Shown here: positions 1,228-25,300 of the stretch, in pieces
Numbering within the stretch: the first letter of the stretch is position 1
Layout of the letters: each line of letters begins with the position of its first letter
IMG/VR virus record: IMGVR_UViG_3300032284_002728
Coordinates: 1-26,978 of that record
Strand: one strand, 5' to 3'
Length of the DNA: 26,978 bases
From: a virus
Position numbers and translations under genes: made by a program
Notes under the pieces: generated by a model
Told to the model about the DNA's origin: nothing
What the model saw: the letters and a program-made list of their open reading frames with translations, nothing else
The model's database searches: none

Positions 1228-2606
1228 TAGTAAGTACCAAATGGATTAGATTCTGTAAAATCAACTATTAGACCCGCTTCAGTTTGAAGATCTTTGTTTT
1301 CTTCATATTTATTATACAAATCATAAGGTTCAAAACTTTGAACAGCATAAGTTGCAGAAGAAGCAGTTCCAACAATAAGTTCTCCTGGATAAAATACTCC
1401 ATTATTGATCGAAACTTCCAAAGTATTTGTACTTTTATTCCAAGATTTAACTCTTGCATTTGTTCCAGATTTAGATCCAACAATAACTTCGTTGAAAATA
1501 TATGTTCCAATTCCAGAAAAAATTGGTGGTGGATCTATTGTAATGGAAGGTGCAGTAGTATATCCAGATCCAGCATTTGTAATTAAAATTGATGAAACTG
1601 ATCCGTTATATGCAGTAGCAATACCAGTAGCAGTTGTTCCTCCACCAACTGTCGGAGAACTGAAAGTAACATTTGGATTTGTATAATATCCTGTGCCATT
1701 ATTTGTGAATACAATATATTCAATTCCCCTATAAGTAGTTTGAATATTTGCTACTGCTGTTGCACCAATTCCAGTTCTACTGGAAATTATTACTTGAGGT
1801 GCAACTGTATAACCATATCCCGAATTTGTTAAGTATATTTGACTTACTGAATTTGATCCTCTTGCACTAGTTGTAATTGCAACAGCACTTGCATTAGATC
1901 CTCCATTTGGTGCCGTTCCAATTGAAACAATTGGTGGAGAAAGATAATTATATCCATCATTAATTAATGAAATGCTTTGAATATATCCAGAAGAAAGTAC
2001 TGTTGTTGCTGAAGCTTGAGTTCCTGAAGAAACCATTTTTACCGTTGTAATATATCCTTGATCTTGAATGAGTTTATCAACCTCATCAATTGAAGTATCA
2101 AGAACTTCATCTTCATATTCAAAGAGTTCACAATTTAATTCATAAACATATAATTTTCCAAGTTGATAAAATGGTTTTTCGTGCTCAACAAATTTAACTT
2201 CAAATAATCTTTGACCAAGAGGAAAATATACTAAATCACCTTCTCTTGGTCTCGATGATAATACAATTTCATCAGTATTCATGGATGCTAAAAATGGAGC
2301 AATAAAGTCTTCAAATCTATCTTTAGAAATAACAATATTCAAATCATCACGAAGGCTCATTCCAAATTTTGTTAAAATATCCCCAGATCCAGAATATCCC
2401 TCATAAGTATTAACATATGCTTCTATGGCAAAATTATCATTAAATTTAGAAGAAGTAACTTCTTTAACAATAGTTTTCTTATCTACAAATTTTCTTGGTA
2501 TGTAAATAACTTCCACACCAAAAATTTTCAATTGTTCATTGATTAAATCTTGAACAAGTCTTTGTTCGCTTGGGGATCCTTGAAGAAAGTAGGGATTAAG
2601 AGCCAT
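1227..2606 (-). CDS. 14: Neck protein gp14, enlarged by internal GGxGY repeats
   Basis: A 459-residue homologue of T4 neck protein gp14 (256 residues in T4), which with gp13 closes the packaged head and provides the tail docking site. The first 185 or so residues look like the conserved domain: MALNPYFLQGSPSEQRLVQD, the FGVEVIYIPRKFV segment, and the PREGDLVYFPLG strand. The C-terminal tail (YDLYNKYEENKDLQTEA, ending NPFGTY) is also family-like. Between them, about residues 205-362, lie four tandem units of roughly 42 residues with cores DGYNYLSPP, SGYGYTVAP, NGTGYYTNP and AGSGYTTAP, followed by an SGTNARV segment near residue 375. That insertion explains most of the extra length over T4. The start is 6 bases after the gp13 stop. 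The gene overlaps gp15 by one base. Confidence 0.93.
   Translation of the reverse strand: MALNPYFLQGSPSEQRLVQDLINEQLKIFGVEVIYIPRKFVDKKTIVKEVTSSKFNDNFAIEAYVNTYEGYSGSGDILTKFGMSLRDDLNIVISKDRFEDFIAPFLASMNTDEIVLSSRPREGDLVYFPLGQRLFEVKFVEHEKPFYQLGKLYVYELNCELFEYEDEVLDTSIDEVDKLIQDQGYITTVKMVSSGTQASATTVLSSGYIQSISLINDGYNYLSPPIVSIGTAPNGGSNASAVAITTSARGSNSVSQIYLTNSGYGYTVAPQVIISSRTGIGATAVANIQTTYRGIEYIVFTNNGTGYYTNPNVTFSSPTVGGGTTATGIATAYNGSVSSILITNAGSGYTTAPSITIDPPPIFSGIGTYIFNEVIVGSKSGTNARVKSWNKSTNTLEVSINNGVFYPGELIVGTASSATYAVQSFEPYDLYNKYEENKDLQTEAGLIVDFTESNPFGTY
1520..1990 (-). repeat. Four tandem GGxGY-type repeats inside gp14
   Basis: Four units of about 125 bases (about 42 residues) follow one another inside gp14. 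Each has a short hydrophobic strand, then a [ND]xGxGY turn, a Pro, an I/V-rich strand and a Gly/Ala-rich strand. The cores lie near 1931-1968, 1808-1826, 1681-1703 and 1552-1577. The DNA copies have diverged but the protein pattern is clear. The regular spacing suggests a small beta-rich domain or a beta-solenoid-like extension; that fold is an inference. Confidence 0.8.
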
Positions 2607-2612
2607 TTTTTA

Positions 2613-3473
2613 TTACCCAATAGTATCGTATGGTGGCATTTCATAATCCATAGACATTTTACTCATAATTTCATCTATTTCCCTTTGGGCATCTTCATAT
2701 ATTTCTCTACCATTCAATTCAATCCCACCGGGAAGTTTTACTCCCTTAAATTTAATTAAATTTTGACCCCATTGCCTTTTTATTAATGCGGTCAAATATC
2801 TTTTAATGAAGCGATCGTTATATACTTTAGTAAAAGTATTTGGATCTAAAATACGGTAGCAATCAATAACAAAAAATGTATCTACTGGAGTGAATCCCCA
2901 ATCAATATCCATATATAATCTATTTTGTCTTATATTAAATCTAACTTGTTTATCGGTTGACAATAGAAAATCAATATCTTCAAGATAACTCTTAACCATA
3001 GAATACTGTAAAAGTTCAACAGAGTTGAAATAATATAAATCATTTAAAAATAACTGATATTTAATACTAAACATTCCTCCAGAAATTGTATTAGTATCAA
3101 ACTTAAATACTTTTTCAATTCCAATTACACTATCTGGAACTTGAAGATAATTTGAGTTCTCATAAAAATTGAAAGTAGTAGGTACGCCATTAATATTTGA
3201 AGTTCCTGTTGTGGTAACTATTCCAGCTCCTGTAGTTGTTACTGGACCATTACTAGTAGAAAGACCACGACCTCTATTAATATCATCTTGAGTTACTTTG
3301 TATTTCAAATACATGCGTTCTACACCGTCGTAGTGCCTTTCCTGGAACATCTGAAGGGCATCATCAACCAAATCATCTATCTGGTCATCATCTACGTTAA
3401 TCTCTAGTACAGGGTATCCTAGACGCCTTAGACAGTAATCTATAAGTTGTTGGCGACTTGCTGGTTTAGACAT
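2613..3473 (-). CDS. 13: Neck protein gp13
   Basis: A 286-residue homologue of T4 gp13 (309 residues), which forms the neck ring with gp14 and binds the portal side of the packaged head. The N-terminus is distinctive: SRQQLIDYCLRRLGYPVLEI, then an acidic DDDQIDDLVDDALQMFQERH helix and YDGVERMYLKYKVTQDD. The middle carries SVIGIEKVFKF and a YYFNSVELLQYSMVKSY segment, and the C-terminal part has FIKRYLTALIKRQWGQNLIK followed by LPGGIELNG, all expected for this family. A Thr/Gly-rich loop (about residues 72-92) is probably a flexible insertion. A good ribosome site (GGAGGA, 3482-3487) lies within the end of the preceding gene and the start overlaps that gene's stop by one base. gp14 follows after 6 bases. 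Confidence 0.95.
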   Translation of the reverse strand: MSKPASRQQLIDYCLRRLGYPVLEINVDDDQIDDLVDDALQMFQERHYDGVERMYLKYKVTQDDINRGRGLSTSNGPVTTTGAGIVTTTGTSNINGVPTTFNFYENSNYLQVPDSVIGIEKVFKFDTNTISGGMFSIKYQLFLNDLYYFNSVELLQYSMVKSYLEDIDFLLSTDKQVRFNIRQNRLYMDIDWGFTPVDTFFVIDCYRILDPNTFTKVYNDRFIKRYLTALIKRQWGQNLIKFKGVKLPGGIELNGREIYEDAQREIDEIMSKMSMDYEMPPYDTIG

Positions 3474-3883
3474 TAGTAGGTTCCTCCAATTATTGTATCT
3501 GTCCAGATAGGATTGTTTGAATTATCAGTAGTAAGAATATAACCACTAAGAGATTGATATGAATTTGTACTGGGAGAAGAATTTATAAGTCCATTATTAT
3601 CAAAGAATGCAACTCCATTTGGACCACTATAAATTCCACTTTGATAGTGTATACCATTATTAAAAGTTACACTTCCAGCAAAAGTAGAAATACCAGATAC
3701 ATTTAATGTAGATACTGCAGCAACGCCACCAACTACATTAGTAGAAACTCCAGCAAAATTAGCATAATTGGCAACACCTGCAGAATTTGCATATGTTGTA
3801 GATGCTGCTCCTCCAGTACCAGATATACTGGAAATTACCTTAATTGCGTTTTGTTGACCTACTCTTACTGTAATATCTCCCAT
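3473..3883 (-). CDS. Small fibre-like virion protein (136 aa) at the T4 wac position
   Basis: No T4 homologue is recognisable. The 136-residue product begins MGDITVRVGQQNAIKVISS, continues with a Gly/Ala/Asn-rich low-complexity part (YANSAGVANYANFAGVS), and then a phage-fibre-like strand segment with VSTLNVSGISTFAGSVTF. The C-terminal half has the tail-fibre style pattern YQSLSGYILTTDNSNNPIW. Such sequences usually form elongated trimeric, beta-rich virion parts in marine T4-like phages. It sits immediately upstream of gp13, where T4 encodes fibritin (wac), so a neck or collar fibre role is a positional inference only. The start has a strong ribosome site (GAAGGAG, 3894-3900, spacing 10) inside the end of the upstream gene and shares one base with its stop codon; the protein ends GGTY and overlaps gp13 by one base. 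Confidence 0.75.
   Translation of the reverse strand: MGDITVRVGQQNAIKVISSISGTGGAASTTYANSAGVANYANFAGVSTNVVGGVAAVSTLNVSGISTFAGSVTFNNGIHYQSGIYSGPNGVAFFDNNGLINSSPSTNSYQSLSGYILTTDNSNNPIWTDTIIGGTY
3474..3487 (-). promoter_or_regulatory. Ribosome binding site and TAATG overlap for gp13
   Basis: On the minus strand GGAGGA (3482-3487) is followed by 8 bases and the gp13 ATG at 3473-3471. The purine-rich site is embedded in the Gly-Gly codons of the preceding gene, and the stop and start share one base (TAATG). This fixes the gp13 start and implies translational coupling. Confidence 0.75.
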
Positions 3884-4224: not shown

Positions 4225-4257
4225 TTATCTGAGAGTATACCTAATTAATATTTATAC
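4225..4257 (-). promoter_or_regulatory. T4-type late promoter (TATAAATA) before the 113-aa gene
   Basis: This 33-base gap is the longest intergenic gap in the window. It holds TATAAATA on the minus strand at 4256-4249, one base after the TAA stop of the 56-aa gene and 24 bases before the ATG of the 113-aa gene. TATAAATA is the core recognised by the T4-type late sigma factor gp55, which works with no separate -35 element. Transcription would start a few bases downstream, giving a very short leader. The promoter would serve the 113-aa, 136-aa, gp13, gp14, gp15 and gp16 genes. No hairpin terminator is apparent here. Confidence 0.75.
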
Positions 4258-4428
4258 TTAGGCAATAAGTGTACCAATTACCTCTTGCTGCTTAAAATAA
4301 AGTTTTACATAAGATTTAGCAATATTTTTTAATTGCTCATTATTATTGCAATTATCTATTTCTCTAGCAATTTTTTCGTATTCAAACATTTTAGAAATAT
4401 TTTCTAATGAGATTTGATCAGGATCCAT
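4258..4428 (-). CDS. 56-aa helical protein, weakly NblA-like
   Basis: I place the start at the ATG at 4428-4426 (MDPDQISLENISKMFEYEKI), giving 56 residues. The longer frame from 4476 would add MKWVRLKLYFTNYLKK, which overlaps the upstream gene far more and looks unlike the rest. With the short start the overlap with the 68-aa gene is 11 bases. The protein is almost all helical, with two likely helices split near DNCNNNEQ: FEYEKIAREI and LKNIAKSYVKLYFKQQEVIG. Small proteins beginning MDP...FEYEK are, as I recall, common in cyanophage genomes. Its size and the SLE...helix-turn-helix pattern, with an LKNxAKSYVKLY core and a final QxxxxxL segment, also faintly resemble NblA, the cyanobacterial phycobilisome degradation adaptor that some cyanophages carry. 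That likeness is weak and unproven. It is the last gene before a late promoter. Confidence 0.72.
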   Translation of the reverse strand: MDPDQISLENISKMFEYEKIAREIDNCNNNEQLKNIAKSYVKLYFKQQEVIGTLIA

Positions 4429-4624
4429 TTTTTTCAAGTAGTTTGTAAAGTAGAGTTTTAATCTCACCCATTTCATCTTTTATTTGCTTAATTTCAAGTT
4501 TTTCTTTTTCTCTATTATTCACCATATTAACGTAACTATCATATTCATTTTTGTCACAATTAATTATAGCATTAGTTTCAGAATCACGATACAAATTTGG
4601 GTGACCCTCTACAGGTATTCTCAT
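4418..4624 (-). CDS. 68-aa hypothetical protein with C-terminal coiled coil
   Basis: A 68-residue protein of unknown function. Its N-terminal half, MRIPVEGHPNLYRDSETNAI followed by INCDKNEYDSYVNM, resembles a small conserved protein I recall from marine T4-like phages ('VEGHPNLYRD' opening). Its second half, from about residue 35, is a charged, heptad-like helix (NNREKEKLEIKQIKDEMGEI, then KTLLYKLLEKN) likely to form a coiled coil. It starts in an ATGA overlap with the stop of the 2392-aa gene and has no clear ribosome site of its own, so translation is probably coupled. Co-transcription with the large DUF4815 gene suggests a role as a minor virion part, a clamp or an assembly factor for that protein, which is inference only. 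Confidence 0.8.
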   Translation of the reverse strand: MRIPVEGHPNLYRDSETNAIINCDKNEYDSYVNMVNNREKEKLEIKQIKDEMGEIKTLLYKLLEKNGS

Positions 4625-7600
4625 AGAATTGCTATTACTCTTACAGAATCAAGTTTAGGTGCAAGTGCCTGATTAGATCCAGACATAATAATTTTAATAC
4701 GATAACCAGTAAATAAATTTAAATTATCTGCAGTAAATGTATAATTTAAATATTCTCCAACATTACTTCCACGAACATAAGCATCTGGTAATCCACTATT
4801 ATTTGCTGGATTTATAACAGTATCTCCAAATCCACTTCCAGTATTATCTTTTAGATTATTATATCCGGGGAATAATTCAAATGATTGATTTACTCCCACA
4901 GAATTGACCCTAATAAGACTATAAAGAACTCTAAAGTCGGCAGATGCATCTCTATAAGCACTTATTAAAACTTTAAGTCCTTTTGCTGGTTGATCTAAGG
5001 TAATTGGAACTGAAACATATACTGCACAATCCGGATCATATGTAAATGAATTTACTCTATTATCTTGAGAATAATTTTGAATTGGACTATTTAAACGATT
5101 ACTACGAAATTCAGTATAAGCACTATCTGTAAATATCATCGGAGACAGATTGGGATCTGTAGTTGATAACGTAATCCCAGTAGTGAAAGATTTACTTGTT
5201 GGCAAAGCACCAAGATAAGTAGTTTCATTCACTTTTGAACAAACAATTCTTGTTGAAGTTAATGGATTAACTTTATTCAATAATACCGATTGGAATCCTT
5301 GATCCACAAAGGAACTTTCGTTTCCACCCATACTTGTACCACTAATTGTTCTTATTGAACCAGTAGCACTAGTAGATGAACCAGGAGTAATTATATTATA
5401 GTAAGGAATAACTGCGTCATATTGAATATTTTCTGTTGCTTTGACTTGATCGCCACCAAGATAAGATTGGCTATTGAATGATAATTGTGGGAATCCATTA
5501 TCCGTGCTTCTATCAACATTTCCACCAGTACTAGTTATACCAACTTGCAAATAATATCCATCATTAGTTGGATATAAACTGTTAATATTGAATGTAGTGT
5601 TGATTCTCCTTAAAGAGATTCCATTTAATTCATATTTAACTACTTGTGTTTGAACTGTATGTGGTTGTATTACTGTTGAATCTATTCCACGAGTAATTGA
5701 ATTTAGACTTCCACTTCCAACTGAAGTATATGAAATAATTTCATTATCTATTTTTACATATCCTGGATTGGTTGATCCAACCGACACACCTTCAAAAGTT
5801 GCAAAAGTAGTGGTATCTCCAACAGCAATATTAATTGAAGTATCACTTGAAGAAAGATTACTTGTTAATACTGAAGGTGATGTATTGGATTGTACATTAC
5901 TCAAAGTTACATAATTACTCAGAGAATACATTCCATGATCAAAATGATCTACTCCCATAATTGCCCCAGTATAATTTCCTCCAGGAGCAGATGAAGATCT
6001 AATTAAAGTACTTCCAAGACTAACTTGAGTACCTGCATTATAATATATTAAATTATCGCCCGGAGTAAATGAGTTTCCTTGAACATTAGACAAGTATAAT
6101 GTATCAACCCCACTAATTCCAGTAACGGTAATTAATGCACCACTTCCAGTTCCACCAGCGGTTGATGTTACAATACCAATAACATCTCCGGCAACATATC
6201 CATTTCCATAGTTAATTGCAGATACTGAGGTAAGAGTTCCGCCTGCTTGAGAAATTGAAAGTGTTAATCCAGATCCACTTCCAGTAAGTGCATATGTAGA
6301 TACGTTTGTTTGATTGCTATAATTTATTCCACCAGTAGTAATTCCAAGAGTTGAAACTGAACTTCCTGTACCTACAACATATCCAAAATTATATGGTTTT
6401 GATGAGGTACTAACTTGCCTACCGGTAGTAAGAATACCAATCATTGCAGTATTAGATGGAATAACTGTTGTAATTCCAACATTTAAAGTTCTTGGGAAAG
6501 TTGCAATTGGATTTGTATGTAAAATAGGAACATAACCATTACTTTGATCAAGTGTAGGATTATAGAAAAATGCAGTTCCAGCATTAGATGTAAAGTTAGC
6601 TTTATATAACTTAAACATTAAATCTTGATATTGATTTGCAGTCCAGGTTGTGGCATTTTGTGATTTAAAAAGACTTCCTAATGAATATTGTTGCCCATAA
6701 ATTACTCCCTCAGCATTTGGTAAATTCTGACTGTTTACAGTAAATTTACCCATTTCAGCAATCCAAACTTGATATTGATCGCTGTTTGGAGATAATAATA
6801 CAATTGCATATTCATTTCCAGGAGCAAGGTAGATTGGATAATCAAATTTAACATTGGTTGCTAGAGAAGCATTTGAAGAAACATTAATTTGATCTGGAGT
6901 TAATACTACAGAATTTCCTAAAATATCACTTGTAGGAGTTCCCAATTCAACTGTTCTGATCTGTACTGTTAATGGAGCATTTCCCGAATCTTTGCTTGCA
7001 AAGAATAAATCAACAGAAGTTAAAAATGCGCCATTAACATCAGGACTTACATTATTTGCAGTACTTGATGAATTATTTCCACCCACATTAAATGATTGAG
7101 CAAGTGGATCTACGTAATATTCTGTATGAGTGATAGTTTTTAATGTTTGTTTAACATCAAGGACGCCTTCAGAATCATAAGTAGTTGTAGCGGAAGATGT
7201 CAATAAACTTCCTGGAAGTGGTTTAGAATTTGTTGAACTTGAAGTAATTACATAAGTTTTTACTCCAATCGGAATTCTTACAGGAGGTGGGGGGCTTGAA
7301 AGTGGATCTCTTAAGAAGAATGTTCCAACCAAATCTCCGTAATTGTCTGAAATCAATCTTAAGTTTTTAACATATGCTACCGCACCACTACTTTGTCCTA
7401 TTAGAATCATCCCTTGAACAAGATATCCAGAATATAATCCTTGAGCTTCTTCCGAAAGTGCATGAGTATCGATATTTAAAACTTTACTTGAAGCACTATA
7501 TGAAGATGGAATATTTTCAGACTTTACATATGGATTAATATTATATGTTGTGGTTGGAGCATTAAATGGTCCATATTTGTGATTTGAATTTGCAACTCTA

Positions 7601-10600
7601 AATTTAATTAAATTCGCATTATTATATGTTCCAATTACAGTTTCTCCAACTTGGAAAGCAGTTGAAGAACCATAATTTTGTAATGTTGAATCCGTTGCAA
7701 TTTCTACTAATTTTGGTACAAAATCAACACCAGAAGTACTATCAATAAATTGGTAGTATTGAGTTAATGGTTTTAGATTTCTAGCAGAGAATTCAGTATT
7801 TCTAGATCTCATATAAAAATCTGCACCACTAGATATTAAAATGTTTTGAGTTGAAACTGTAGTATCCCAATAAAGGGTTTCTCTATGTCCACCATTTGGC
7901 CTTACCCAAACATGATTTACCTGTTCAATTACAATTCCTGGAATTTGAATAGTTCTTACCCAATTATCACTAGATGGTGATAATGTAACATTTCCAGTAT
8001 ATTGAACTACATTAAATGGATTTACATTCTCAACTTGAGTTGCTAATGGTTGATTGATCCAACCAACTTCTTGATAGTTTAATAATACTGTGTTCTTTCT
8101 TTTTACTACATTTGTATCTAAAAGTGCAAAATCCGCTGATAAATCTAAAGTATTATCAGTTAAACTTGTTGCGGGAGCTAATTGACTTTTGAGGGAATTT
8201 CTACTAATAATTGGTATAAGTTTTTGATTATCGGAGTCAACTTGAATTGAAGAATATGTAGAATCAATATAATCTGAAGTTTTAAAATCATCAACAAAAA
8301 TACCGCTCTTAAATCTATTAACTCCTTGAGCATCAATTACTTGAAGACTTTGAGTACTTGCCTCTAAAAGTGAAAGTGATGTTGAAATTTCCAGTTCAGT
8401 CAATCTATCGTCGAGGACACCAATATCCCTCATCGTATATCTTCTATTATCATCCAACGAAATTGAAGCTTGCTTGGGATCAAACAAATATGGTGGAAGA
8501 GTAATAGTTGCAAGCTCCATTACCTCGTCAATAATTATTGGTGGTTGTGGAACATCTGAAGAAGAACCTTGTGAAAGAATAAAGTTTCCTCTTTTGTCTA
8601 AGAATAATTTATCAATTCTTCCCAAATAATAACTATAACCTATTAGTGAACTTTCGTTTGGAGTTACAATTACTTTTGGGTTTGTTCCAAAATTTCTTTG
8701 TGAAAAATCAAATGGAGAAGCAGAACTTCCAGTAAAAGGAAGTACATATGGTCTAAAATCTAAAGTATCAGATGCTCTTACTTGATTAATTCCAATATTT
8801 GGAATATCATAAGTATATCTCGAATTATCATAACTTAAAACCGTAAATAAATCACCAGTATCACTAGTAGAAACTGAATAATAATCAAATACAATAAGTA
8901 ATTGATTTGATGGTTGTGTAATTGTTTTATTTCTTACAATTTTGGAATAATCATAATATTGATCTTTTTGGCCTTTGTCTAACGTAAAATTATTTGTTAT
9001 ATTTTTATAAAGTCCATTTGTAATTGATTGAATGCTACCAGATATGTTTGACTCTTGGAATGTTACTGATTCAAAAGAAGAAAATCTATTAGAATTTAAA
9101 TATACAATTCCAATATTATTTGAACTTGGTTTTGTAACAACTCTTGCAACTGCTCCACTTGTTGATCCTACAATATTCTCTCCAATAATTGCTCCAGATG
9201 TTACATTCAAAATTGGACTGAAATTTAAAATATCTAGTGTGGGTGCAGATGTATTAACAGACTCATAAATTGCAATTATATTTGCAACGTCTGGATAATT
9301 TAAACTTATCTCTTCATCTTCAACTCTCAATCCATAAAACTGATTATAAGTTAATCCGTTAACCACAGAAGTGCTTATACCACTTCCAGACTGTGGATAT
9401 TTTGAGTTTGTAATATTAAGGATTTGACTTCTATTATAAGTTTTTACTTTACTTTGAATACTACTCTTAAGTAAAGTTGAATTTATGGAAACAATTGTTT
9501 TATTTGGAGTAATTCCACTAATAGTTACATTATTTCCACTTAGTGAAAACTTATCGGATGTTAAGTTTTCTACCGTTCCATCGGAATAAAAAATTGAATA
9601 TCTTTGATTATTATAAGCTAAGAAAAATGCACTTGTTATTCCACTAACATTTGATAAATTAAATGTAATTGTGCCAATTCCACTACTTGTGACGCTAGTA
9701 ATTTGTTGAGAAACTGCTAAATTTGATCCAGTTAAATTTACTGAAGATATTGGTGATTTTGGGAGAGTTGAATACAGGTATCCATTATTTTGATTTCTTA
9801 TAATGGGAACACCTAATGAAAATGGAGTTTGTATTGTAGTAGTAGATATTCCACCATCACATACTCCAGGAACAGTAGCAACTCCAACAACAGTTATAGA
9901 TAATCCAGTTGTTGAAATTCCTATTACTCGGTTAAAAGTTTCAGTATTAAAGCCAACTCTTTGATATCTAATAATACTGTCAGATGTAATTCCGGTAAAA
10001 GTTTTTCCGGCACAATTTATATTTGCGTTTCCTGCAGTATCATAAGAAATTGTAATATTATCAGTCGAATTAAAACCATTTGCTATAGTTTTTTCTAAAT
10101 TAACATCTGCACTAAATGGGGCTACAAATCCAGATACTGTAGTTGATTGATAAACTGATTTAATATCTTTAGTATCAAAAATTCTAATTCCACTTATCAC
10201 TCTTGTTGGAATTGTTTGCAATCCATTTATTAATAATGCCTCACCAATTTGGAATGATCCGGAAGTTTGGCGCAATAAAATAGTAGTCCCGTTTCCGGCA
10301 GCTGTTGCATATCCACTTGCTCCACTATTTACTCCCTTTACAAAAGAAGTTATAGGTAAATCAATACCAGAAACACCTTGATTTAAAGTTAATTGGGTAT
10401 AAGTCTGAAGATCGTAAAGATATAATGCCCATTTAGTTGCACTTCCAATACCAGAAGAAAATGAAGTATCGGACAGATTCATCATGTATACTCTAGCATC
10501 ACCAATTTGAATTGCTGTAGGAATTGCCCCATTAGGGCCTTTTCTTTGATTATATAAAGCAATAGTATTTTTAAATAAAGGAACTCCAGAAATATTATTA

Positions 10601-11799
10601 ATTCTTAAAGTACTTCCAAGTTGAAATGGTATATTTGTGGTGGTGATTGTTTTAGTATCTCTTGGTTTAGGAGAATCAATAATTGTTAAAGCATTTTTAG
10701 TAATATCATATCCCCTAACATAAGATAAACCAGGAGAAACTTTTACACACATCAGATTATCTGATGGTGTATTTCCTTGATCAGTTTTTTGATTATTGAA
10801 ATATATTCCATCATTTCCCAATCTATCATTTAATGAATTCTGTAAATTGACTGTAAATGGATTTACTGAGAAATTTCCTGCTTCATCATAGGTTCTTTTT
10901 GCTAAATAATCTCTTATACTTGATTCTGGAGTTGTACTTTGGACTTGTACTATTTTTCCGTTTACTACTCTTAAAAGTTCAACAAAATCAGTATCGTTTA
11001 GATCTGTTAATAATTTTTTAGTTAAGGTTAAAGTTATTTTAAATCTATCTGCTCCAGGTGCTGCATAATTGGTGAAACCTTTTGCATTATCATATAAGGT
11101 AGAATCCTCATACGCGGTTATGATTTCTTCACTAATTTGTAAACCAATTCTATATGAGGGAATATTATCATAATAATCTAATAATATAGTTTGTGCTAAT
11201 ACGTTTACAAAATATCCTCTAATAAAATAAACACCGTCAGCAATAGAAGCCGCAGATCCAATAGATGTAGCATTTGATGCTATCAAAGAAACAAGAGGAG
11301 TTCCTGCATTAATAACCCCTGAAGAATATGAAATATTATCATTTGCAGCAACCAATAATTCTCCATCTAAGAAAGAACTTATGGCAAAATTATTGCCTGA
11401 ATCAATATATTTTACATATATTGTTGGATTGATTACTTCATCATTATTTGGAAGTTGTACATATTGAACAACCGCAGTAACACCGGAAGATTGTCCTGTT
11501 AATTTTATTCCTACAAGTTTATCTAGGTATAATGTAATATCAATTCCATAAAGAGATGGATTTAATTGAACTGCATAAAAATTACCATCATATGCAATAT
11601 TACCAGGAACTATTACTGAACCATTTTTAAAAGAATTACTTCCTAACTTTTCAAGTTGATCCTGTAAAATTGATTGAAGAGTCGTTAATTCTCTAGATTG
11701 AACTGGTCTTCCCGGATTAAATAATACCTTATAGAAATTATTTGCAGAATTGAAGTCATCATAATATGGGTTAATATTAAGATTTGTCTTTTGTGTCAT
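4621..11799 (-). CDS. Giant DUF4815-type virion protein (2392 aa) at the gp9-gp12 position
   Basis: A 2392-residue structural protein. The N-terminus (NINPYYDDFNSANNFYKVLF, then PGRPVQSRELTTLQSILQDQ) is the signature start of the DUF4815 family found in marine T4-like phages. Further family-like blocks are YYLGRIDKLFLDKRGNFIL near residue 1055, ELATITLPPYLFDP, RRYTMRDIGVLDDRLTELE, and DPLAQSFNVGG near residue 1562 followed by FLTSVDLFFASKDSG. The C-terminal 170 residues, with AKGLKVLISAYRDASADFRV and a final SVRVIAIL, also look like the family end. Between these lie recurrent modules: SSGA repeats, GGINY and YGNGY repeats (about 1821 and 1861), and a KIDNEIISYT...ITRG module near 2015. In T4 this interval encodes gp9-gp12 (wedge, pin and short tail fibres), none of which is recognisable here, so a baseplate-peripheral or fibre-attachment role is likely. 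Some annotations call such proteins gp10-like; I could not confirm that. The start is 3 bases after gp8. Confidence 0.85.
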   Translation of the reverse strand: MTQKTNLNINPYYDDFNSANNFYKVLFNPGRPVQSRELTTLQSILQDQLEKLGSNSFKNGSVIVPGNIAYDGNFYAVQLNPSLYGIDITLYLDKLVGIKLTGQSSGVTAVVQYVQLPNNDEVINPTIYVKYIDSGNNFAISSFLDGELLVAANDNISYSSGVINAGTPLVSLIASNATSIGSAASIADGVYFIRGYFVNVLAQTILLDYYDNIPSYRIGLQISEEIITAYEDSTLYDNAKGFTNYAAPGADRFKITLTLTKKLLTDLNDTDFVELLRVVNGKIVQVQSTTPESSIRDYLAKRTYDEAGNFSVNPFTVNLQNSLNDRLGNDGIYFNNQKTDQGNTPSDNLMCVKVSPGLSYVRGYDITKNALTIIDSPKPRDTKTITTTNIPFQLGSTLRINNISGVPLFKNTIALYNQRKGPNGAIPTAIQIGDARVYMMNLSDTSFSSGIGSATKWALYLYDLQTYTQLTLNQGVSGIDLPITSFVKGVNSGASGYATAAGNGTTILLRQTSGSFQIGEALLINGLQTIPTRVISGIRIFDTKDIKSVYQSTTVSGFVAPFSADVNLEKTIANGFNSTDNITISYDTAGNANINCAGKTFTGITSDSIIRYQRVGFNTETFNRVIGISTTGLSITVVGVATVPGVCDGGISTTTIQTPFSLGVPIIRNQNNGYLYSTLPKSPISSVNLTGSNLAVSQQITSVTSSGIGTITFNLSNVSGITSAFFLAYNNQRYSIFYSDGTVENLTSDKFSLSGNNVTISGITPNKTIVSINSTLLKSSIQSKVKTYNRSQILNITNSKYPQSGSGISTSVVNGLTYNQFYGLRVEDEEISLNYPDVANIIAIYESVNTSAPTLDILNFSPILNVTSGAIIGENIVGSTSGAVARVVTKPSSNNIGIVYLNSNRFSSFESVTFQESNISGSIQSITNGLYKNITNNFTLDKGQKDQYYDYSKIVRNKTITQPSNQLLIVFDYYSVSTSDTGDLFTVLSYDNSRYTYDIPNIGINQVRASDTLDFRPYVLPFTGSSASPFDFSQRNFGTNPKVIVTPNESSLIGYSYYLGRIDKLFLDKRGNFILSQGSSSDVPQPPIIIDEVMELATITLPPYLFDPKQASISLDDNRRYTMRDIGVLDDRLTELEISTSLSLLEASTQSLQVIDAQGVNRFKSGIFVDDFKTSDYIDSTYSSIQVDSDNQKLIPIISRNSLKSQLAPATSLTDNTLDLSADFALLDTNVVKRKNTVLLNYQEVGWINQPLATQVENVNPFNVVQYTGNVTLSPSSDNWVRTIQIPGIVIEQVNHVWVRPNGGHRETLYWDTTVSTQNILISSGADFYMRSRNTEFSARNLKPLTQYYQFIDSTSGVDFVPKLVEIATDSTLQNYGSSTAFQVGETVIGTYNNANLIKFRVANSNHKYGPFNAPTTTYNINPYVKSENIPSSYSASSKVLNIDTHALSEEAQGLYSGYLVQGMILIGQSSGAVAYVKNLRLISDNYGDLVGTFFLRDPLSSPPPPVRIPIGVKTYVITSSSTNSKPLPGSLLTSSATTTYDSEGVLDVKQTLKTITHTEYYVDPLAQSFNVGGNNSSSTANNVSPDVNGAFLTSVDLFFASKDSGNAPLTVQIRTVELGTPTSDILGNSVVLTPDQINVSSNASLATNVKFDYPIYLAPGNEYAIVLLSPNSDQYQVWIAEMGKFTVNSQNLPNAEGVIYGQQYSLGSLFKSQNATTWTANQYQDLMFKLYKANFTSNAGTAFFYNPTLDQSNGYVPILHTNPIATFPRTLNVGITTVIPSNTAMIGILTTGRQVSTSSKPYNFGYVVGTGSSVSTLGITTGGINYSNQTNVSTYALTGSGSGLTLSISQAGGTLTSVSAINYGNGYVAGDVIGIVTSTAGGTGSGALITVTGISGVDTLYLSNVQGNSFTPGDNLIYYNAGTQVSLGSTLIRSSSAPGGNYTGAIMGVDHFDHGMYSLSNYVTLSNVQSNTSPSVLTSNLSSSDTSINIAVGDTTTFATFEGVSVGSTNPGYVKIDNEIISYTSVGSGSLNSITRGIDSTVIQPHTVQTQVVKYELNGISLRRINTTFNINSLYPTNDGYYLQVGITSTGGNVDRSTDNGFPQLSFNSQSYLGGDQVKATENIQYDAVIPYYNIITPGSSTSATGSIRTISGTSMGGNESSFVDQGFQSVLLNKVNPLTSTRIVCSKVNETTYLGALPTSKSFTTGITLSTTDPNLSPMIFTDSAYTEFRSNRLNSPIQNYSQDNRVNSFTYDPDCAVYVSVPITLDQPAKGLKVLISAYRDASADFRVLYSLIRVNSVGVNQSFELFPGYNNLKDNTGSGFGDTVINPANNSGLPDAYVRGSNVGEYLNYTFTADNLNLFTGYRIKIIMSGSNQALAPKLDSVRVIAIL
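5690..5765 (-). repeat. DNEI...RG module in the DUF4815 protein
   Basis: The encoded stretch around residue 2015 reads GYVKIDNEIISYTSVGSGSL and then a short ITRGIDST segment followed by a His. The same pattern occurs near the N-terminus of the 4001-aa protein (about 25050-25085) and in a looser form near 16060-16100. It is a recurring protein module shared by two virion genes. Confidence 0.65.
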
Positions 11800-11802
11800 T
11801 TT

Positions 11803-13380: not shown

Positions 13381-16300
13381 TTAGGTATATGGTTTATTTT
13401 TTACAGCACCAGTACTTCTTAATCCATATCCTCTTCTTTGAATAGTTGGGAAAGTTGTTAATCCAACATCTATTGTTGAACCACTAACTGCAATTGATAC
13501 TGGCGAAGAAGATCTAGTAAATCCAGATAGTCTACCCCAAGAAAAACTACCAATACCAATATTGCCAACTGTTGATATTCCAACAATTGAAGTATTAGAA
13601 TTTACATTACAAATAATATATGCGTTTGTACTTGCAGTTCCAGTATAGTTGAGAGAATGAATATAATATATGTTATTCAGACAAGAAGTTCCAATTCCAA
13701 CAATAGCATTATTACTACTATCAATTGAAGTCACACCATTACCAACAGTTGTGTTGTAAATATAAATTGGGTATCCTGTTGATAATCCCGCTGGGAATTG
13801 ATTTGAATTTAAATAAAATTTAAGCGCAAGTGGATTTCCAGATGTTCCAGTTGTAGTTCCAATTCCAGTTATAATTCCAGAAAATCCTTGAATTAGAGAA
13901 ATTCCAGAAATATTTTCAGTTGAAGAATTTGGCAAAGCTACAATTGCTTGTGGGGGATTTAAAACACTATATCCAAATCCAGGATTTGTAATTGTTATTG
14001 GTGTAGTTAATGCTCCATTTGAAACTGTTACCGTTGCTGTTGCAGTAGTTCCAATACCAACCCCAACAAATGGGGGTCTAGAAATTTTAACAGTAACTGT
14101 AGTTCCAATATATCCCGATCCGGGACTATTAATATTCAAGGAAGTTATTGTCCCAGAAGAACCAACGATTGCAGTTACTGCTGCAGAAACGGGATCAGAT
14201 TTTCCAGAAACAATTAATCCATTTACTGATGAAATTGTAATTCCGGTTAGATTTTGCTCATATTTAAAGAAGTTTGCGTCATCTACAAATAATTGATTAT
14301 CAGATGTTGAAAAATCTTTAATAATTTTTGCTGTCGGGTAGATTAAAGATTCTATTGAATCTCTAGATTTGTAGAAAATTTGTCCATTTATTTGGGCATC
14401 AACTTTTTGTTTTGTCCAATTAAGTGGTTTTGGATTTTGTACATCAATACCAACATCCGAATATATATTTGTTTGAATTTTATCTGCCGCCGAAACATCA
14501 AATACTTTTCTTGTATTTTGACTAGTCGTAATTCCAATCAAGTTATTGTTACTGGAAATTTGTACAAAATCTCCTGGTTTTATAGTTTCATAAACAGTTA
14601 TTTGAACACTATCAACGTTTCTTGTTCCCCTATAAAAATATATTGAAATATTATCTTGGGGTAATGGTGGCTCAGAGAATGTAAATGAAGATCCTCCATA
14701 GAATTGATAAGAATTTCCTGGAGATTGTATGACGCCATTGATGAAAATGAGTAAAACTGAATTTAAATCAATTGCAGAAGAATCTAAATTATTTCGATCT
14801 GTTTCAAAACTTAATAGAGATCCATTATAATAAAGTGGGAATCTAGTTCTCACACCATCTTGTAAATTAACTACAGAATCAATGTAATCTAAATCCCCAA
14901 AGTTCCAAGCAGCAAATGAATCATTAAATGTATCAGTTACTGTTAATTGTAAAGGTATAATCGGTGAAGATAGACCTACCGCAGTAACTAATCCAATAGG
15001 AGTGATTATATCACCTTTTTGGAAATTATACCCAGGTCTTGTAATTTGGAAGGTGGATATTTCAAACAAAGTTGATCCAATTCCAGTTGTAGAACTTGGA
15101 GCAACATTTACATTTAAAAGAAGTCCCGATCCAGTTGTAGTAGTATTTCCAACGCCCAATCTAGAAACACCGATGACTGGTAAATTTGTATAACTTGGGG
15201 ATGGAATTTGTAAAGTTGGTTTATAGTAGTTATCACCCTGAGTAACAATTGTTAAAGCTAAGGATCCTCCGGCACCAACTGATGCTGAAATAAATGCGGG
15301 GAGTGCTCCTGGAATTACTTGATGAATTGGATCTGATATTCCAATTGCAACATTTCCATAGTATCCAGATCCAAAAATTGAAGTTGATGCAATTCCGATT
15401 ATTCTTCCTACAGCATCAGTAATAATACCAATATTTGCCCCAACTAATGGAGCATATCCTAATCCTTGAGAAGATCCAAGCGATACAATAACTCCACCTC
15501 TAGGTAGTTGATTAAGATTTACATCATAATTTGATTGTACAATACTACCATTATCTGAAGTAATTCCACTAAAGATTACGCTAGTAATTCCTGTATTAGT
15601 ATTTTGTGTAATTGAAAAATTATTTCCAGTATTATTTGCTGTCGTTGGAGTTTGGTAAATATCATTTATAAATAAAACTCCATTACCACCAGTCCCCAAT
15701 CCAGTAGTATTAATTCCTTGAACTGTTAATGAATAAGTTTGACCTATTCCAGTAAAGTTACTTGATATGTCATCAAACAGTTGATTGGTGCTATAATCTT
15801 TCCTCAAATAAACTCTACCATCAAATCTAGATTTTACTGGAGGTAAATTGCTGGAATCATTTCCAAATAATAAATCTCCAATTGGCGCATCTGTAAAATG
15901 AATTTTTCCAGAGCTTATGTTGAAAGATCCCCTATAAATTCTTCCACAAGTGGAATCTAAATGAGAAGTTGCCGATGAACCAACCGCTCCTCTTAATACA
16001 TTTACTAAAGAAACATTTCCACTATTTGTAATTGGACCAGAACTAGTTGTTCCAAGTCCAACATTAATAATTTTCATATACTCATTATCTACATAAAGCA
16101 AATCATTTGGTTTAATTGAAGATATTCCACTCAAAGCAAATATTGTACTTGAAGATCCTACTGTACCACCGTTATTATATAAAGTATAATTGATGGGAGT
16201 GAAAGATATTGGATATTGAATTACGTTATCAATTGTAATAATTGATCTTTCTAATGTTTTGTTCATCTGTAGAAGATGAGCATTACCTAAACCATAAGAT

Positions 16301-19300
16301 GTAAATGTTACATATATTCCTGCGGCAGCATAATCAGGTCTTGTTGCTAATTGGAAAGTATTATTTGTTAGTTTAATTGCATATACATCTGGAGTCAGGA
16401 AACTAGTTAGAATTCCAGAAGAATTTAATGTGGAACCAATCCCAACTGCAGTATATCCAATACCACTATATGTTGAAGACGGTATATAATTCAGTTTTTC
16501 TCCAGTACTAAAGAAGTGATCTTGTATAGAAAATACTCCAGTTGTTGGATTTAATATTGTGGGATCTGAAGGATTAAATGTTTTTTGGAATATTGGAGTT
16601 CCATTATAGTTTAGATTAAAATCTAATCTATTAATTCTTGACCCATTTACTCCAGAATATTGTGCAATATTAACTGATTCTATTTCTGATCCATATTGAA
16701 GACTTGGCGGAATATTTGCAGTATCAATATCACTATATAAACATTCGGTATAAGCTAAGACTTTAATATTTCCAGTTATAGATTTGTCTGGATAAAATTT
16801 CAAACCAAGATTAAGTCCTGAAGAATCATACTCTCCACCAAAAGTACCAATTCCAGTAGTGCTTCCAATAGAAAGATATGGATATTGTAAAGTATAGATA
16901 TTGCTATTATCATGAAGAAGCATCACTTGATGTAAGACACTTGTTGATCCAACACTCACTTCAATTAAAGATTTAAGTCCAGAAATATCAAAACGATTTA
17001 CAGAAACTATACTAGATGCTGCAGATACAGTAGAATAATTGGACTGATACATTGCTGTTTTTTCAGTACCACTAATTTGCCCACTTAATTTAAATCTGTA
17101 AGTTCCAATTCCGACAGATGTAGATCCAAATCCAACATTTTTAGTTTTAACTATAACTGTATTTGAATCCGTATTTGTATAATTTAATGAAAGAACACCC
17201 GAAGATAAGGAACCGCTAAATGAACCAATTGGAACATATGATTGTGAGGAAAGAGAATTAGAATCAAAATAATATTCGGACAGATAAGTGTCATTACCAT
17301 CAGTATTTAAATAAATTTCAACAAAATTCATTGAATTTGTCAAACTATCAATAATTTGAATATTTGAGTATATTGAAGTTGTACTAGCAGCGGATACTGA
17401 TACTAATGATGTAGTTATTCCTGAATTTATTATGTTATTTGTTGAACTCAGATTTATAAATCCAATAGAAGTACTTCCAATTCCGGAGAAAGTGGTTGAA
17501 AAATTATTTTGTAGGATTTTTATATCATAATCATAATTATATGGATCTGTGGGATTAAATTCCAAATATGAATTATTTAAAGGATCAGTATAGATAGAAA
17601 CATCTCCAATTATTTGTGGTTGATTATATAAAGTACCTTTTTCTAGTTTGAATAAATTGGAATTTAAATTATCATTTAATACAATTAATTCCGTTAATTG
17701 GAATTGAGATTTAGTTGTATCTACAGCTTGAACTATAAATCTATTATAAGTTTGTGTAGATAATATTTGTAAAATTTTATTTTGATCGGATGCAGATAAT
17801 CCTAAACTTGAGAATTGTGAGCTTATGTCATCAATATTTAAAACTCTATTTGTAATACAATCAATATAACTAGTCAATTGTTTATTATTAAATTTTATAA
17901 AATTAGAAGATCCGTTGGTTGAATTGTAATCAACTACCGTATCAAAATTATTAATAGTATCAACTCTATTTTCATCAATTATATCGTATCTTACGATTGT
18001 ACTATTAATTCCCACAACAAGATGACTAGAACTTGAAGTAATTCCAACATCTGCAAAATTCTTAAGACCTGTTGTATGAAGTAAATTATTTACTGGAGTA
18101 ATTAAGTCCTTAAATTGGATTGGACTTTTTACTGTATAAGCAAGATCTTGGTAATAATCATTATCAGACGTTGATTGATTATCTTGATCTAGTTTACCAA
18201 CATCATTTGCCCATCCATAATTTTTTGGAGTTGAATAATTTACATTAAATCTTCCATAATTTTTTTGAATTTGATCTATAGTTGCTATAGTTCCTGAAGA
18301 TTTTCCTTGTATGATAACTCCAGATGATAAATTATAAGAACCAAAAACTTTTATTGTATTATTTCCATAATATGCAATAGACAAATCTACTTCATTAAAT
18401 ACTCCATTAGTACTTACTAATAATTTTTCTCCCAAGTTGAAAGATGATGAAGTTTGATTTATGGTAAATTGTGGATAATTTTGATATTTTATAATATTTG
18501 GCAGAGATTCTTGAGAAGTTTTTGCAATTCCGGGATTTGTAGTTAATCCAGAAATATTATATTCAATTTGAAATGGAATTGATGCATTTGAAGTGGCATT
18601 AGTTACTGTAAAGAATGTATAATTATAATCTGCTGAATTAAATCCCGTTCCGCTATTTCCATATTTTTGAATTCCCTCAACAAATATTTGATCTCCAATA
18701 GAAAAAATTGGAGGTGAATATGTGCTAAATCCCAATATGGGTGTGGTTAGTAAGCAGGTTACAACTCCAGATGAGGAACTATAAACGGTATTAACACTTA
18801 ATCCATTAGTATTATTAATAGATACAATTCTATTTGAAGGTCCCAATCCCTTTGGATTCTGTATGATATCTACAGAATTTATACTACTGGAACTTAGATT
18901 AGCTTTTAAAATTCCAGTATTAACTTGTTTTCCAGTTGTACCATCTACTATGATGAGATTTGGTGGATATATGTAGTAATTTCCACCATAATTTATAACT
19001 ATGTTTGAAATAGTGTTTGAATTTTTTAAAGTTATTGATGGTGAAATGTAAGCAGTTGGCTTTAATGTATTATCAGATGCATATTCAAATCCCTCATTTA
19101 TAATTGAAATATTTTTTACATTACCAATTGTTTTTGATTTTGGTGTAATAAAAGCACCGGTTCCTTGAGATGAACCTACCCCAATAAAAAGAGGTAATTT
19201 TTTATAATTTAATCCACCAGAAATAATTCTAACTTTATTAATTGCGCCATATGCAGTTGGAGAATTAGTTGAATAACTTAAGGTATTGCATTGAGATGCT

Positions 19301-22300
19301 GTATATGATAAATTTTCAGGAGTATTTACAAGAGAGATATTAAATGATGTAGAACCTATTCCAGAAATATTAAACGTTCCATTATAAACACTATCCGTAA
19401 ATAATATTTTTGACCTATTTTTAACATCAGTATCTGAAGTACTTATAAATCCAGATTTTTCTAAAGTGTAAAATAGTGAATTTGGAATTCCTGAAGTGTA
19501 CTTTAATGTTAATGAAGCATTTGTGGATACTCCAACTGTTCCAACTCCTGAAATATTAAAAGTGTTTGTATTTCCAACTGAAACAAACTCATTTGTAAAA
19601 TTATTATCATAATAAATTCTCAATTTATATCCAGATAGTGATTTATCGGATAAATTAAATACTAAATTATTATTTTTAACTGAAGATATCTGTGGATTAA
19701 TTGGACCAATACTGTGATTTGATCCTCCGCTGGAAGCAATTGAAACTATTGTAGGTGGAACCAACTGAGAATCATAATATGTTTGACACAACTGTATTGT
19801 ATTAGAGTCAATTTTATATACAAAATATGAACCAGTAGAAAGCCCTGAGGCAATTAAATCATTCGCCGAATATAATACTTTATCTCCAGTATTTAAATTA
19901 TGATTTGCGAGAAAAATATTATTATTTGATGTGTTAATTCCAGTACTACTAAATCCAATTGGATTGATTAATATTTTTTGAGATATGGGATCATATTTAA
20001 CATATACTGAAGATGAAGTTCCAATACCAACAGAAAGATTTGGTTTAACTGTTAGATCAATTACATCACCATTTGATAAATTATTCGTAGCTGCAGTAGA
20101 AACTGTTGTTTTAATTTTTTGAACATTGGAAGTTACTTGATTATAAAGACTTCTTATTGAATATAAGTAACTATTTGTTGTAGATCCAATTCCAGCAAAG
20201 TATACCTCAGACGAATTCAAATTAGTTTTTATGCCAATAGTATTTCCTGATTTATTTGTAACATAAACAACTGTAGAAATTCCAATTATTGGTAAATTAA
20301 ATGGAGTAGATCCGAAAGATGTCGATATCGAAAGTGGAGAGTATGTTGTATCTGGTATTGATAAAATAACCTGCTGATTATTTGAAAATGGATGATTTTC
20401 TAAGTAAATTGATTGTGAAGGAATTGATCTTGAATATGTTGTTACTCCAGAAAATGCAAATGTAGTAGAAGTAGAAACTCCAGCACTTACTCCATATCCA
20501 ACCGTTTCTAATGGATTAAAGAATACAATATCATTCCTTTTAGAATCAAAGAAAGAAGAATTATATTGAATTGTAAATGAATCTGGAATAAATTGTACCA
20601 CACTAGAGGTACTATATGCATAACCAGATATACTTCTATTTGCTCTTATTACATTTTGATCTTTAAAAATATTAAGAACAGATAAAATTTCATTTCCAAT
20701 AAGTATGCTACTTCCTATTGAAATATTTTGGGGTATTTGTGATAGGTAAATGTCAGTTACAATTCCAACATTAGTAGATGGAATATATTTTGCTGTAGAA
20801 GCATAGTAAGAAGTTACTCCAATATTATACAATCCATTTATTTTACCCAAATTAGTTGAAAAACCAGAAACTACTACATTGTCTGCATCTGATAGATTAT
20901 GATAAGGGGTAACAATTACTTTAATTGTGTTACCATCTTGCCAAAGTGCTAGTGAATTATTATATGTTTGAATATTTGTAAAAATACTGGTAATTCCAAC
21001 ACCATTTACACTAGAAACTACTGCACTCAATCCTCCACCATTTGTTCCAGTATTATCAAATTGAAGTTGATCTCCAACTTTATAATTTGTTCCCCCGGAA
21101 ACAACATTAAAACCATTTACAGATCCTTTAGATACTGAATTTACTATAGATTGTTGAATGACTTTATCACTAGATTCAATTATAAAATCATTAGATGCAT
21201 ATAAATCATTAAGTTTATATGGGAAAGTATTTCTAATTAATTTGGAATTTTTAAAATTAAAAGATTGATCAATTAATAAATTATCAGTAATGAAATTTGA
21301 CTTATAAGTATTTCCTATAAAATACGGGAAACTACTTACTAATAATGAACTCAGAGAAGAACTTGTAGTAACTCCAGCAAAATATGCATACACTCCATTT
21401 GGAAAATCTGGAGTTTTTGTGAATCTTCCATTATTTTGATCTAGGTCGCCCGAATTGGTAAATGTATAATCATCAGCAAAAAATCCAGCATTAAATCCTG
21501 ATGGTCTATTATAAACTGAACTATAATTTAATTGATATCCTCCGGTTAAAATTTTGATTGAAGAGGATGTATTTTGCGAATCAGAATATCCAAATGGACC
21601 ATAAATTGGATTTCCATCATATGCCCATCCAATTATTGGTGAATGTTTGGTTTGATCTCCATCATTAAAACTTTGTCTTAATTGATCAAAATATCCAGAT
21701 ACACAATATTCCAAATTATTGGGAGTATTTTTTAATATTTCATCACCATATTTAAAATTATTATTTACAGTTAAACTTCTAACATTACTGGTAAATAATG
21801 CATTTGATCCTGGAGAAATTACTTGTGCTGAAATATTTGTAGTGGTATATCCTAATCCAGAATTAACTACAATAGCTTTTACAATCTGCCCATTACTAAT
21901 AACTGGCCTTATTACTGCACCAGTTCCAGATCCATTAATAATGATGTCAGGTACAGAATAATAATTAGTTCCACCATACAAAATATTGACTGAGGTTACT
22001 TGCCCATTAATTACTACTGGACTTAGTTTTGCCCCACTTCCAGTTAAAATTGAAATATTTGGTTTTGCATGTAAGTTTATGACCTTTGATCCATAATCAG
22101 TACCAGGTTCATACAAATAAGCATCAATAATCGATCCTCTGACAATTGGAGTTGCAGTAATAACTCCGACTGCATATTTGATTGATGTTGAACCTACTCC
22201 AACAGTTGCTGAAGTCACCAAAAGAGAAATTGGTGGATAACTAAAATATTGATATCCGGATCCAATTCCAGAAAATTTTACAAAATTACTTCTTGTATAA

Positions 22301-25300
22301 TTATTAATATTTGTCCCACCAATTCCAGCATCACATAATTTAAAGTAATTATCATCAACTCTTGAAACATAATATTGATTTGTTGTAGTAAGTCCAGTAA
22401 TTGGTGTCGTCTGATAGTTATAAACAATTAAGTCTTTTTCATTAAATCCATGATTTTTAAAGTAAACTGTATTATTAATTGTAGATATTCCAACCGTTTT
22501 TACGATTAATTGTCTATTAGTATACCCACTTCCACCATTTATAACTTTAATTTCACTAATTGCATTTTGCAGAACGCCGCTTTTAAACTTATGATATCCT
22601 GAAGTATTACTAGTTGTAAAACCTATAGTATTAATTCCAGAAATTGCATTAGATTGTGAATTATATAATTGTATGGTTACATTATTAATAACCGAAACAT
22701 AATAAGTTGCGTTCTGTACAAGATATGAGTTTTGATTTACATTTGATCCACTAAAAGTTCCAATTCCTATTGGAAGATTTCCATTAGAATCATAAATTAC
22801 TGAATCCCCAGTATTTAAATTATGATTTGTAAGAAATGAAATTGTTTCATTATTAATGTCAATTCCACCATAATAAATGGACAATTGTCTGGCATCAAAT
22901 AAAATTTCCCTTCTTCTTTTAATTATAATTGGACTGAATACTGCACCAGTTCCATTACCTCCTGTCATTCCAATAGAAACTACCGTATTTAAATCAAAAG
23001 TCTGTGGATCAACAAGAACTTTTTGAACAGAACCACTTATAACAGGTTGAATTAATGCTGTAGTTCCAGAACTATTATTTACATTAATCACGGGAGGATT
23101 AATTACATCATAATTATTACCACCATTTAATATTTGTACAGAATCTAATGGCCCGTAATAGATTTTATCATTTGATTTATAATTCTCAATTTCAACACCA
23201 TTAATTAACATCCCAATTGATCCTGTTGGTGTTAATTGTCCGGTCCCGTTTTGAATATTTTGAGATAGATTAAATTTCTTTAATAATTTTTGGGAAGAAA
23301 TATAATTGTTGGATGTTCCATTTAATATAAAATTATGAGATCCAGTTCCTGGATATAATGTACTAAATCCAACATAATTAGATCCAGACCCTATAAATGA
23401 TCTAGAATTATACAATCTAATTTTATTTTGCGATGAAAGTACTTCAACATAATAGGATTGTTGTGTTAATCCTGGAATAGGTGATGATGATGGTTGGTAA
23501 TAGATTTTATCGCCGTTTACAAATGGCACATTATTTGTAAACGCAATTATTGAATATTGTTGCGAAATTGGATCATATCCTTGAAGATTTCCAGATCCAT
23601 TTGCAGAATCTATAGGAGATCCACTTGCATTTGGAATTGAATATTGAATTAAATTTTTTGCAATTGTATATGAAGGCAATCCATTTGATGCAACATATAC
23701 ATCATTAGAATTGGAATCATCTATGAATAAATTTTGAATATCTGAAATTAACGCATTATTTCCTCCGGTTATAGCAATCCCCGTGCTACTTGCTTTATTT
23801 AATTTTCTTCTTATATCATACTGTAAATTAATATTTGGAACAAATGCATCATTATTACTTACTGTTATTTGATTATTAGTAAGATCTATACTATTAACAT
23901 AAGGAATATTTGTAGATGATGATACTACTATTTGAGTTCCCCTTTTTAATATTTCAATATTATCTCCAACCTTTAAGCTTGATTTATCAATTGGACTTAA
24001 TAAAGTAAAAGTAGATCCATTAATTGCACTTACTTGATATCTTGAACTTGTATTGTATACCCAAGAATTTGCAAAAATTTGTTCGTATGTTTTATTTGAA
24101 CTTGGATTTGTTATAATTTCTCCAAGATTATTTACTGAGATTTTATCCCCTTCATTTACATTATAAACATCCGACAATTGTACAAAGTCAGAAAGTACTC
24201 CCGTAATTCTAAGATCTACTCTTTTTTTAATATCTCCATTTTCATATCCAAAAATAGTTTCATCAGACCTTATATCATCTGCAGCATTAATTGTATTGAT
24301 AATTCCAGAACAACCATAGAATTGATTAATACTTTTACTTGAATAAGTTATTCTATTTGTCCCTGAAATTAAAGTTCCCGTTTCAGAAAATCCAATTGTA
24401 GAATCTACGCTAATTATTGAAGATCCGGATAAAGTATTTTCAATAACTTTTGTTTTTCCCGGAATTGTAAAAGTTCCAACTACAGCAGAAGTATCATTAT
24501 ATCCTACAAAAAGGGAAAGTTTATAGTATACCTTTCCATTAATTGTTAAAATTTCCGCTTGAGAAACTGATGCGTATGTATTTGGGTCAGTTGATTTTGT
24601 AATAGTTTGACCAACTAATTTGCTAGCATCTCCAGAAATTAATTCAGCAATTACTTCTTCTCTTCTTGAATATTCGGCGGAAGATGGTCTAAGTAATAAA
24701 TCAGAAAGATTTACTACTGTTGGAGTTACTCCATAAAGAATATTGAATAAAATTCTAAATGATTCTTTAGTGCCTTTTGACTGATAAAAAGATTTTGCAC
24801 TTTTGATAAAATTGCCAATATTTAAATTATTAACAAATTCGGTATTTTCTAATCCTGGAGTAAATGTATATTTTATTTTCTTATAAAATTCTTTTAAAAA
24901 TAAAGAACTTAAATTATATACTAAAGCCCCAGAACTATGAGATTCTTGATTTGAAGTAGAAAAGACGAGTTCTTCTGGATTAGATGGACTATGGTAACTG
25001 GTAATTCCACTAAATCCCCTTACACATCCAGTAAAAGTATTTGCACTTATTCCTGTATATGTAATAATTTCATTATCAATTTTTACAAGACCATATTTTT
25101 GCGGATATCCTTTTGTGCTAGTGACCGTAATAATTCCTGAAGTAGAACTAATGTCTGATACTAGATTAGTATTTCCAACAACAACTTCTGGTGTTAGATT
25201 ATCTAGTTTAAGATATTGATCTAAATTATCTGCAAGATCTACTGGACCGCTTTGAAATTCCTGCGAGACATAATATTGCTTTAAAAAATCTGACGTTAGA

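Follow-up and report, generated by a model that had tools for sequence, protein, structure and literature searches.

How did one short glycine-rich repeat come to lie in four different virion proteins of a single phage, and what might it do there? We addressed these questions in a virus record of 26978 bases (the window, meaning the whole stretch of DNA analysed), in which every large gene is on the minus strand. The virus is cyanophage-like; the nearest named phage is Synechococcus phage S-SRM01 for gp14 (62%) and several cyanophages for gp8 (62-63%). The large genes are as follows:

430-1227, minus strand: gp15
1227-2606, minus strand: gp14
2613-3473, minus strand: gp13
4621-11799, minus strand: DUF4815/VrlC protein, 2392 amino acids (aa)
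11803-13353, minus strand: gp8
13381-25386, minus strand: 4001-aa protein
25388-26977, minus strand: gp6, 5'-incomplete

Two small genes lie between gp13 and the DUF4815/VrlC gene. Positions 4225-4620 hold no open reading frame of at least 80 aa, and S-SRM01 DNA that is 67% identical there overlaps two small annotated genes.

The repeat unit is about 40 residues long, with a long strand, a GxGYxxxP turn, a short strand, and an Ala/Thr-rich strand, the three strands being predicted; a Pro often falls four residues past the Tyr of the turn. An earlier note made from the sequence alone had described this anatomy as a strand, a GxGY turn, and two more strands, and it was recovered in all four proteins, with strand predictions that agree. 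The span first proposed (1520-22545) ends too early: units are found from about 1503 up to 23148. They are listed below, with percentages from profile-profile comparison and bits from a hidden Markov model (HMM) of gp14 units only:

1872-1988, minus: gp14 unit 1, aa 207-245 (gp14-unit HMM; predicted strands)
1740-1853, minus: gp14 unit 2, aa 252-289 (HMM; units 1 and 2 together align to T4 gp18 domain I)
1614-1727, minus: gp14 unit 3, aa 294-331 (HMM)
1503-1604, minus: gp14 unit 4, aa 335-368 (HMM)
1326-1487, minus: second part of the gp14 C-terminal barrel, aa 374-427, the array being inserted in one barrel loop
2076-2606, minus: T4-like neck domain of gp14, aa 1-177 (PF11649, E 1.4e-30, aa 3-176; T4 gp14 chains)
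12580-12699, minus: gp8 unit 1, aa 219-258 (12.4 bits; 88%)
12454-12579, minus: gp8 unit 2, aa 259-300 (5.3 bits; profile-profile score 17.8, 25%; clear in pf16 gp8)
6247-6360, minus: DUF4815/VrlC unit 1, aa 1814-1851 (79%; clear in relatives, e.g., L097)
6121-6240, minus: DUF4815/VrlC unit 2, aa 1854-1893 (63%)
23035-23148, minus: 4001-aa protein unit, aa 747-784 (93%)
22942-23031, minus: 4001-aa protein degenerate unit, aa 786-815 (score 19.0, exceeding the 99th percentile of off-site windows)
22492-22566, minus: 4001-aa protein unit, aa 941-965 (87%)
21895-22005, minus: 4001-aa protein unit, aa 1128-1164 (95%)
21781-21891, minus: 4001-aa protein unit, aa 1166-1202 (94%)
21004-21126, minus: 4001-aa protein unit, aa 1421-1461 (80%)
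19138-19248, minus: 4001-aa protein unit, aa 2047-2083 (92%)
19039-19125, minus: 4001-aa protein unit, aa 2088-2116 (51%)
18916-19017, minus: 4001-aa protein unit, aa 2124-2157 (95%)
15295-15381, minus: 4001-aa protein unit, aa 3336-3364 (51%)
15178-15273, minus: 4001-aa protein unit, aa 3372-3403 (91%)
15013-15063, minus: 4001-aa protein degenerate unit, aa 3442-3458 (62%)
14020-14154, minus: 4001-aa protein unit, aa 3745-3789, clearer than any other non-gp14 unit (29.1 bits; 97.5%)
13939-14004, minus: 4001-aa protein unit, aa 3795-3816 (94%)

The 4001-aa protein also contains a YHYH domain (PF14240, E 6e-25; aa 1243-1341, window 21364-21660), for which a role as a metal-dependent hydrolase associated with the tail has been predicted elsewhere (PMC7824862).

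An HMM built from the four window gp14 units alone scored at most 5.8 bits outside gp14 and was dropped as too narrow. We therefore relied on a broader HMM, still made of gp14 units only, gathered from 80 relatives. Against a background of 8.3 bits, the highest score among 900 local shuffles, this model scored 29.1 bits in the 4001-aa protein, with weaker matches to the same motif, and 12.4 and 5.3 bits in gp8. The earlier note had rested the unity of the family on such a model retrieving the other three proteins; gp8 and the 4001-aa protein were indeed retrieved, but the DUF4815 protein was not. The latter was reached by comparing the gp14 profile to 678 windows taken from the other three proteins, with relatives on both sides: off-site windows averaged 8.8 (standard deviation, 2.5; 99th percentile, 16.9), and the DUF4815 sites scored 24.1 and 21.5. 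Fifteen of the 17 listed sites scored at least 20, most listed sites falling between 20 and 49; the second gp8 site, at 17.8, barely exceeded the off-site 99th percentile, and the site at 1084 of the 4001-aa protein (14.6) fell under it. The six top off-site windows come from just two places, 3442 and 786 of the 4001-aa protein, which resemble degenerate units. Pair-versus-pair comparisons between genes mostly gave probabilities of 50 to 98%, with a few lower. A later profile, A2, includes window units, and its scores on the window were therefore used for coordinates only. Taken together, the gp14 HMM, the profile-profile scan, and the pair comparison place a shared profile above background in all four proteins, as the claim of a single common family had it. 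A resemblance between Gly-rich strands through chance or composition, suggested by the shortness and glycine content of the units and by the narrow four-unit HMM not clearly reaching the other proteins, is already contradicted and can be set aside as exceedingly improbable, since shuffles and off-site windows score far below the units, and the unit HMM finds no match in the T4 genome but 13 to 32 matches in each of five cyanophages.

In gp14, alignment places the array in one loop of the C-terminal barrel, with a GExxxG strand on one side and the AEVKSWD strand on the other. Copy number at this point varies widely among relatives: no units in Syn1 (292 aa) and P-RSM6 (291 aa), two in S-RIM8 (390 aa) and S-RSM4 (375 aa), four in P-SSM2, S-SRM01, and the window (459-470 aa), about seven in L046 (643 aa; locus 10001-11932), and about 10 in L063 (851 aa; locus 4675-7230). 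Across 52 sequences, every gp14 unit keeps its G, Y, and P with little or no variation. Structure comparison of the gp14 barrel returned translation-factor and baseplate rows at Z below 7. A second repeat-like barrel motif, approximately GExIxGxxSGAxAxV, seems to recur in gp14 (1326-1487), gp8 (about 11880-12300), and the DUF4815 protein, and may be another shared module.

The gp8 protein matches PF09215 (E 4.9e-13). In cyanophage gp8 a pair of units lies between the YITVP and HGYDLYKELG segments, with another, different insertion further on; the pair is seen in cyanophages and in Pseudomonas phage pf16 and is absent from T4 gp8 (334 aa). The earlier note suggested looking for versions free of repeats; both gp14 and gp8 do have versions with no units or few (the gp14 length series; T4 gp8). 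The note's proposal that repeats make up much of the extra length needs correction for gp8, where the pair covers under half because the second insertion (about aa 350-490) accounts for the rest. The DUF4815 protein matches PF16075 (E 1.6e-60), and its relatives carry plain units at both sites of the window protein.

The distribution of scores also bears on how the units arrived. Each window unit scored 118 to 220 against the same gene elsewhere and only 34 to 69 against other genes of the window; every one is nearer to its counterpart elsewhere than to any other gene of the window, which argues that the sites are old and were inherited in place. The three extra gp14 units of L063 are about equally distant from everything and are therefore not fresh tandem copies. 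The idea of a recent spread among neighbouring genes of this lineage does not survive these comparisons. Although one family in four neighbouring genes and the expanded arrays of some relatives might suggest a module still copying itself among the virion genes of this virus, for the window units same-gene relatives are always closer than other genes of their own genome, and we found no DNA repeats of note within the gp14 array; recent mobility is contradicted for the window and is very unlikely overall.

Beyond the window, units occur in a tail fibre of P-SSM2 and in the gp5 hub and long tail fibre of S-SRM01. The tail sheath of Stenotrophomonas phage Moby (L252 965-2938) has a clear pair at aa 240-314, in a loop that differs from that of T4 domain I, and a Nostoc sheath-like protein (L238 2744-4855; Phage_sheath_1C), perhaps part of a contractile injection system, has six tandem units. 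In bacteria, units were found at 64 loci of many phyla, some of them inside multicopper oxidases (L193 3296-7672, L229 2567-6079). Run lengths at these loci favour pairs, but because the search started from a pair, this preference is not counted as evidence. Reading by eye, we also noted two probable units ahead of an SGNH-hydrolase-like stretch in a T4-like phage protein (L277 1-1038). No model in Pfam or NCBIfam covers the repeat, and a literature search found no paper on it, which does not prove that none exists. Overall, the family is real, old, and widespread, and it is without a name in the libraries searched.

What fold the units adopt was approached through gp14. A full-length gp14 model was good across the array and poor across the T4-like part; AlphaFold2 modelled the array alone at pLDDT 90.9 and pTM 0.82, and each unit in that model has three strands. 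Foldseek found no match to this array in the PDB at E 0.001, and two natural pairs likewise found nothing there. In a Foldseek search of a viral structure library, the matches of model md4d135a8e59b include a non-phage protein, from Sylvanvirus (1054 aa, 27% identity). The top VIA-align rows were all domain I of the T4 sheath protein gp18 (3foa, 3j2m, 3fo8, 9ev2), at Z 5.3 to 5.9, a range (below 8) that is common in VIA-align; 71 to 75 residues aligned with a root mean square deviation of 2.7 to 3.1, and the next row had Z 2.9. Three of these rows cover gp18 residues 98-188 (NIDYTISTPGSNYAVGDKITV...GKIKKINIPTGKNYAKAK...), and one covers 99-255. When profile windows were slid along full-length gp18, scores were highest at 100-118 and 137-145, where two units would be expected to start: a mixed-unit profile reached 19.5 at aa 100-118, with no more than 8.7 outside the domain, and the gp14 profile reached 14.0 at 137-145 and 12.2 at 100-118 against 9.5. 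For seven of nine pair profiles, domain I outscored every off-domain window. Taken one at a time, the profiles match gp18 weakly (best, 44-66%). When a Morganella-type T4-like genome was searched with the unit profile, gp18 domain I was the sole match (E 0.038). In T4 itself the unit HMM matches nothing, which counts against the link to gp18.

Against the Pfam model of this domain (Gp18_dom_I, PF22639; cut-off, 27 bits), the gp14 array gave no match, and the best pair, from L097, scored 12.5 bits (E 0.15), compared with 131 bits for the T4 control. With scores below the cut-off, the units are not filed as Gp18_dom_I members. Among PDB sequences, the unit profile matched the Dpo31 tailspike at E 0.02; TAL effector rows from the same search were discarded because their scores add up numerous very small matches to a VxIxxxGGGxxA stretch. 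Each of the lines pointing to gp18 is weak singly; judged together, they make kinship between the units and gp18 domain I likely, if not proven. Runs with an odd number of units exist, and a pair is therefore not obligatory.

In T4, domain I is a protruding, inserted six-stranded barrel with no sheath-sheath contact that attaches to the baseplate and to the long tail fibres in their retracted state; its mutations G106S, S175F, and A178V inhibit fibre retraction (PMC3004832). Numbered without the first Met, all three positions fit the T4 gp18 sequence; G106 is then the glycine of the unit turn, and S175 and A178 lie near the domain end, where the Ala-rich strand of the second unit would fall. 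By this analogy, two units together would form a small six-stranded barrel of the domain I kind, and the pairs or longer runs, which sit in loops of proteins with a fold of their own, would stand out as knobs on the surface of neck, baseplate, sheath, and fibres, where they may contact other virion parts (fibres, baseplate) or the host surface. The contact function is drawn from gp18 domain I only. The suggestion of a decoration or inter-subunit contact domain is plausible on the strength of the VIA-align and gp18 profile results; the resemblance to an exposed sheath decoration domain is likely and offers a concrete, solved candidate for comparison. An old three-strand repeat, forming domain-I-like paired barrels inserted in loops as contact knobs, is on balance our favoured explanation. 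A bolder extension, which we consider improbable, is that the pairs serve contractile machines in general as a docking module, the T4 sheath copy holding retracted long tail fibres and the cyanophage neck and baseplate runs holding fibres in place of whiskers; Fibritin_C had no match in five cyanophages.

Two other roles have to be weighed. Arrays might only lengthen or stiffen a protein, with copy number nearly neutral, as the range from 0 to about 10 units in gp14 would allow, but the sequence of each site is kept across relatives, and the G, Y, and P are nearly invariant, though folding alone could account for the latter; we regard such a spacer as unlikely. Slightly less doubtful is that projecting units bind host-surface sugars weakly, as proposed for the Ig-like domains of phages. 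Units also occur in tail fibres, in many bacterial proteins, and in the protein with the SGNH-like stretch, and extra sheath domains have been proposed as adhesion aids (PMC9230969); no lectin or carbohydrate-binding family was matched in Pfam, however, and the units in multicopper oxidases suggest a more general use. If contact knobs related to gp18 domain I are the correct reading, a domain known from T4-type sheaths would be a widespread building block of contractile tails; it would explain much of why cyanophage neck and baseplate proteins are larger, and its natural copy-number variants would allow its role to be tested.

The comparison with known systems is closest for T4 gp18 domain I, where two three-strand units would correspond to a six-stranded barrel, the G-x-x-Y turn register is shared, and the domain is inserted in a loop of another domain, as in gp14 and gp8. 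In contrast, the units score below the Pfam cut-off, form longer runs, and are also found in neck, baseplate, fibre, and bacterial proteins. The Ig-like domains of phage virions are described as promiscuous modules (Fraser 2006, as cited in PMC9230969), and the units are likewise a promiscuous module on many kinds of virion protein; however, they have no Pfam Ig match, and Ig-like structures appear only at Z of 2.9 or less in VIA-align. The proteins that carry the units belong to known families: window gp14 and gp8 belong to the same families as their T4 counterparts (PF11649 and PF09215) but add units that T4 gp14 (256 aa) and T4 gp8 lack, and the DUF4815/VrlC protein is a member of PF16075 with units added.
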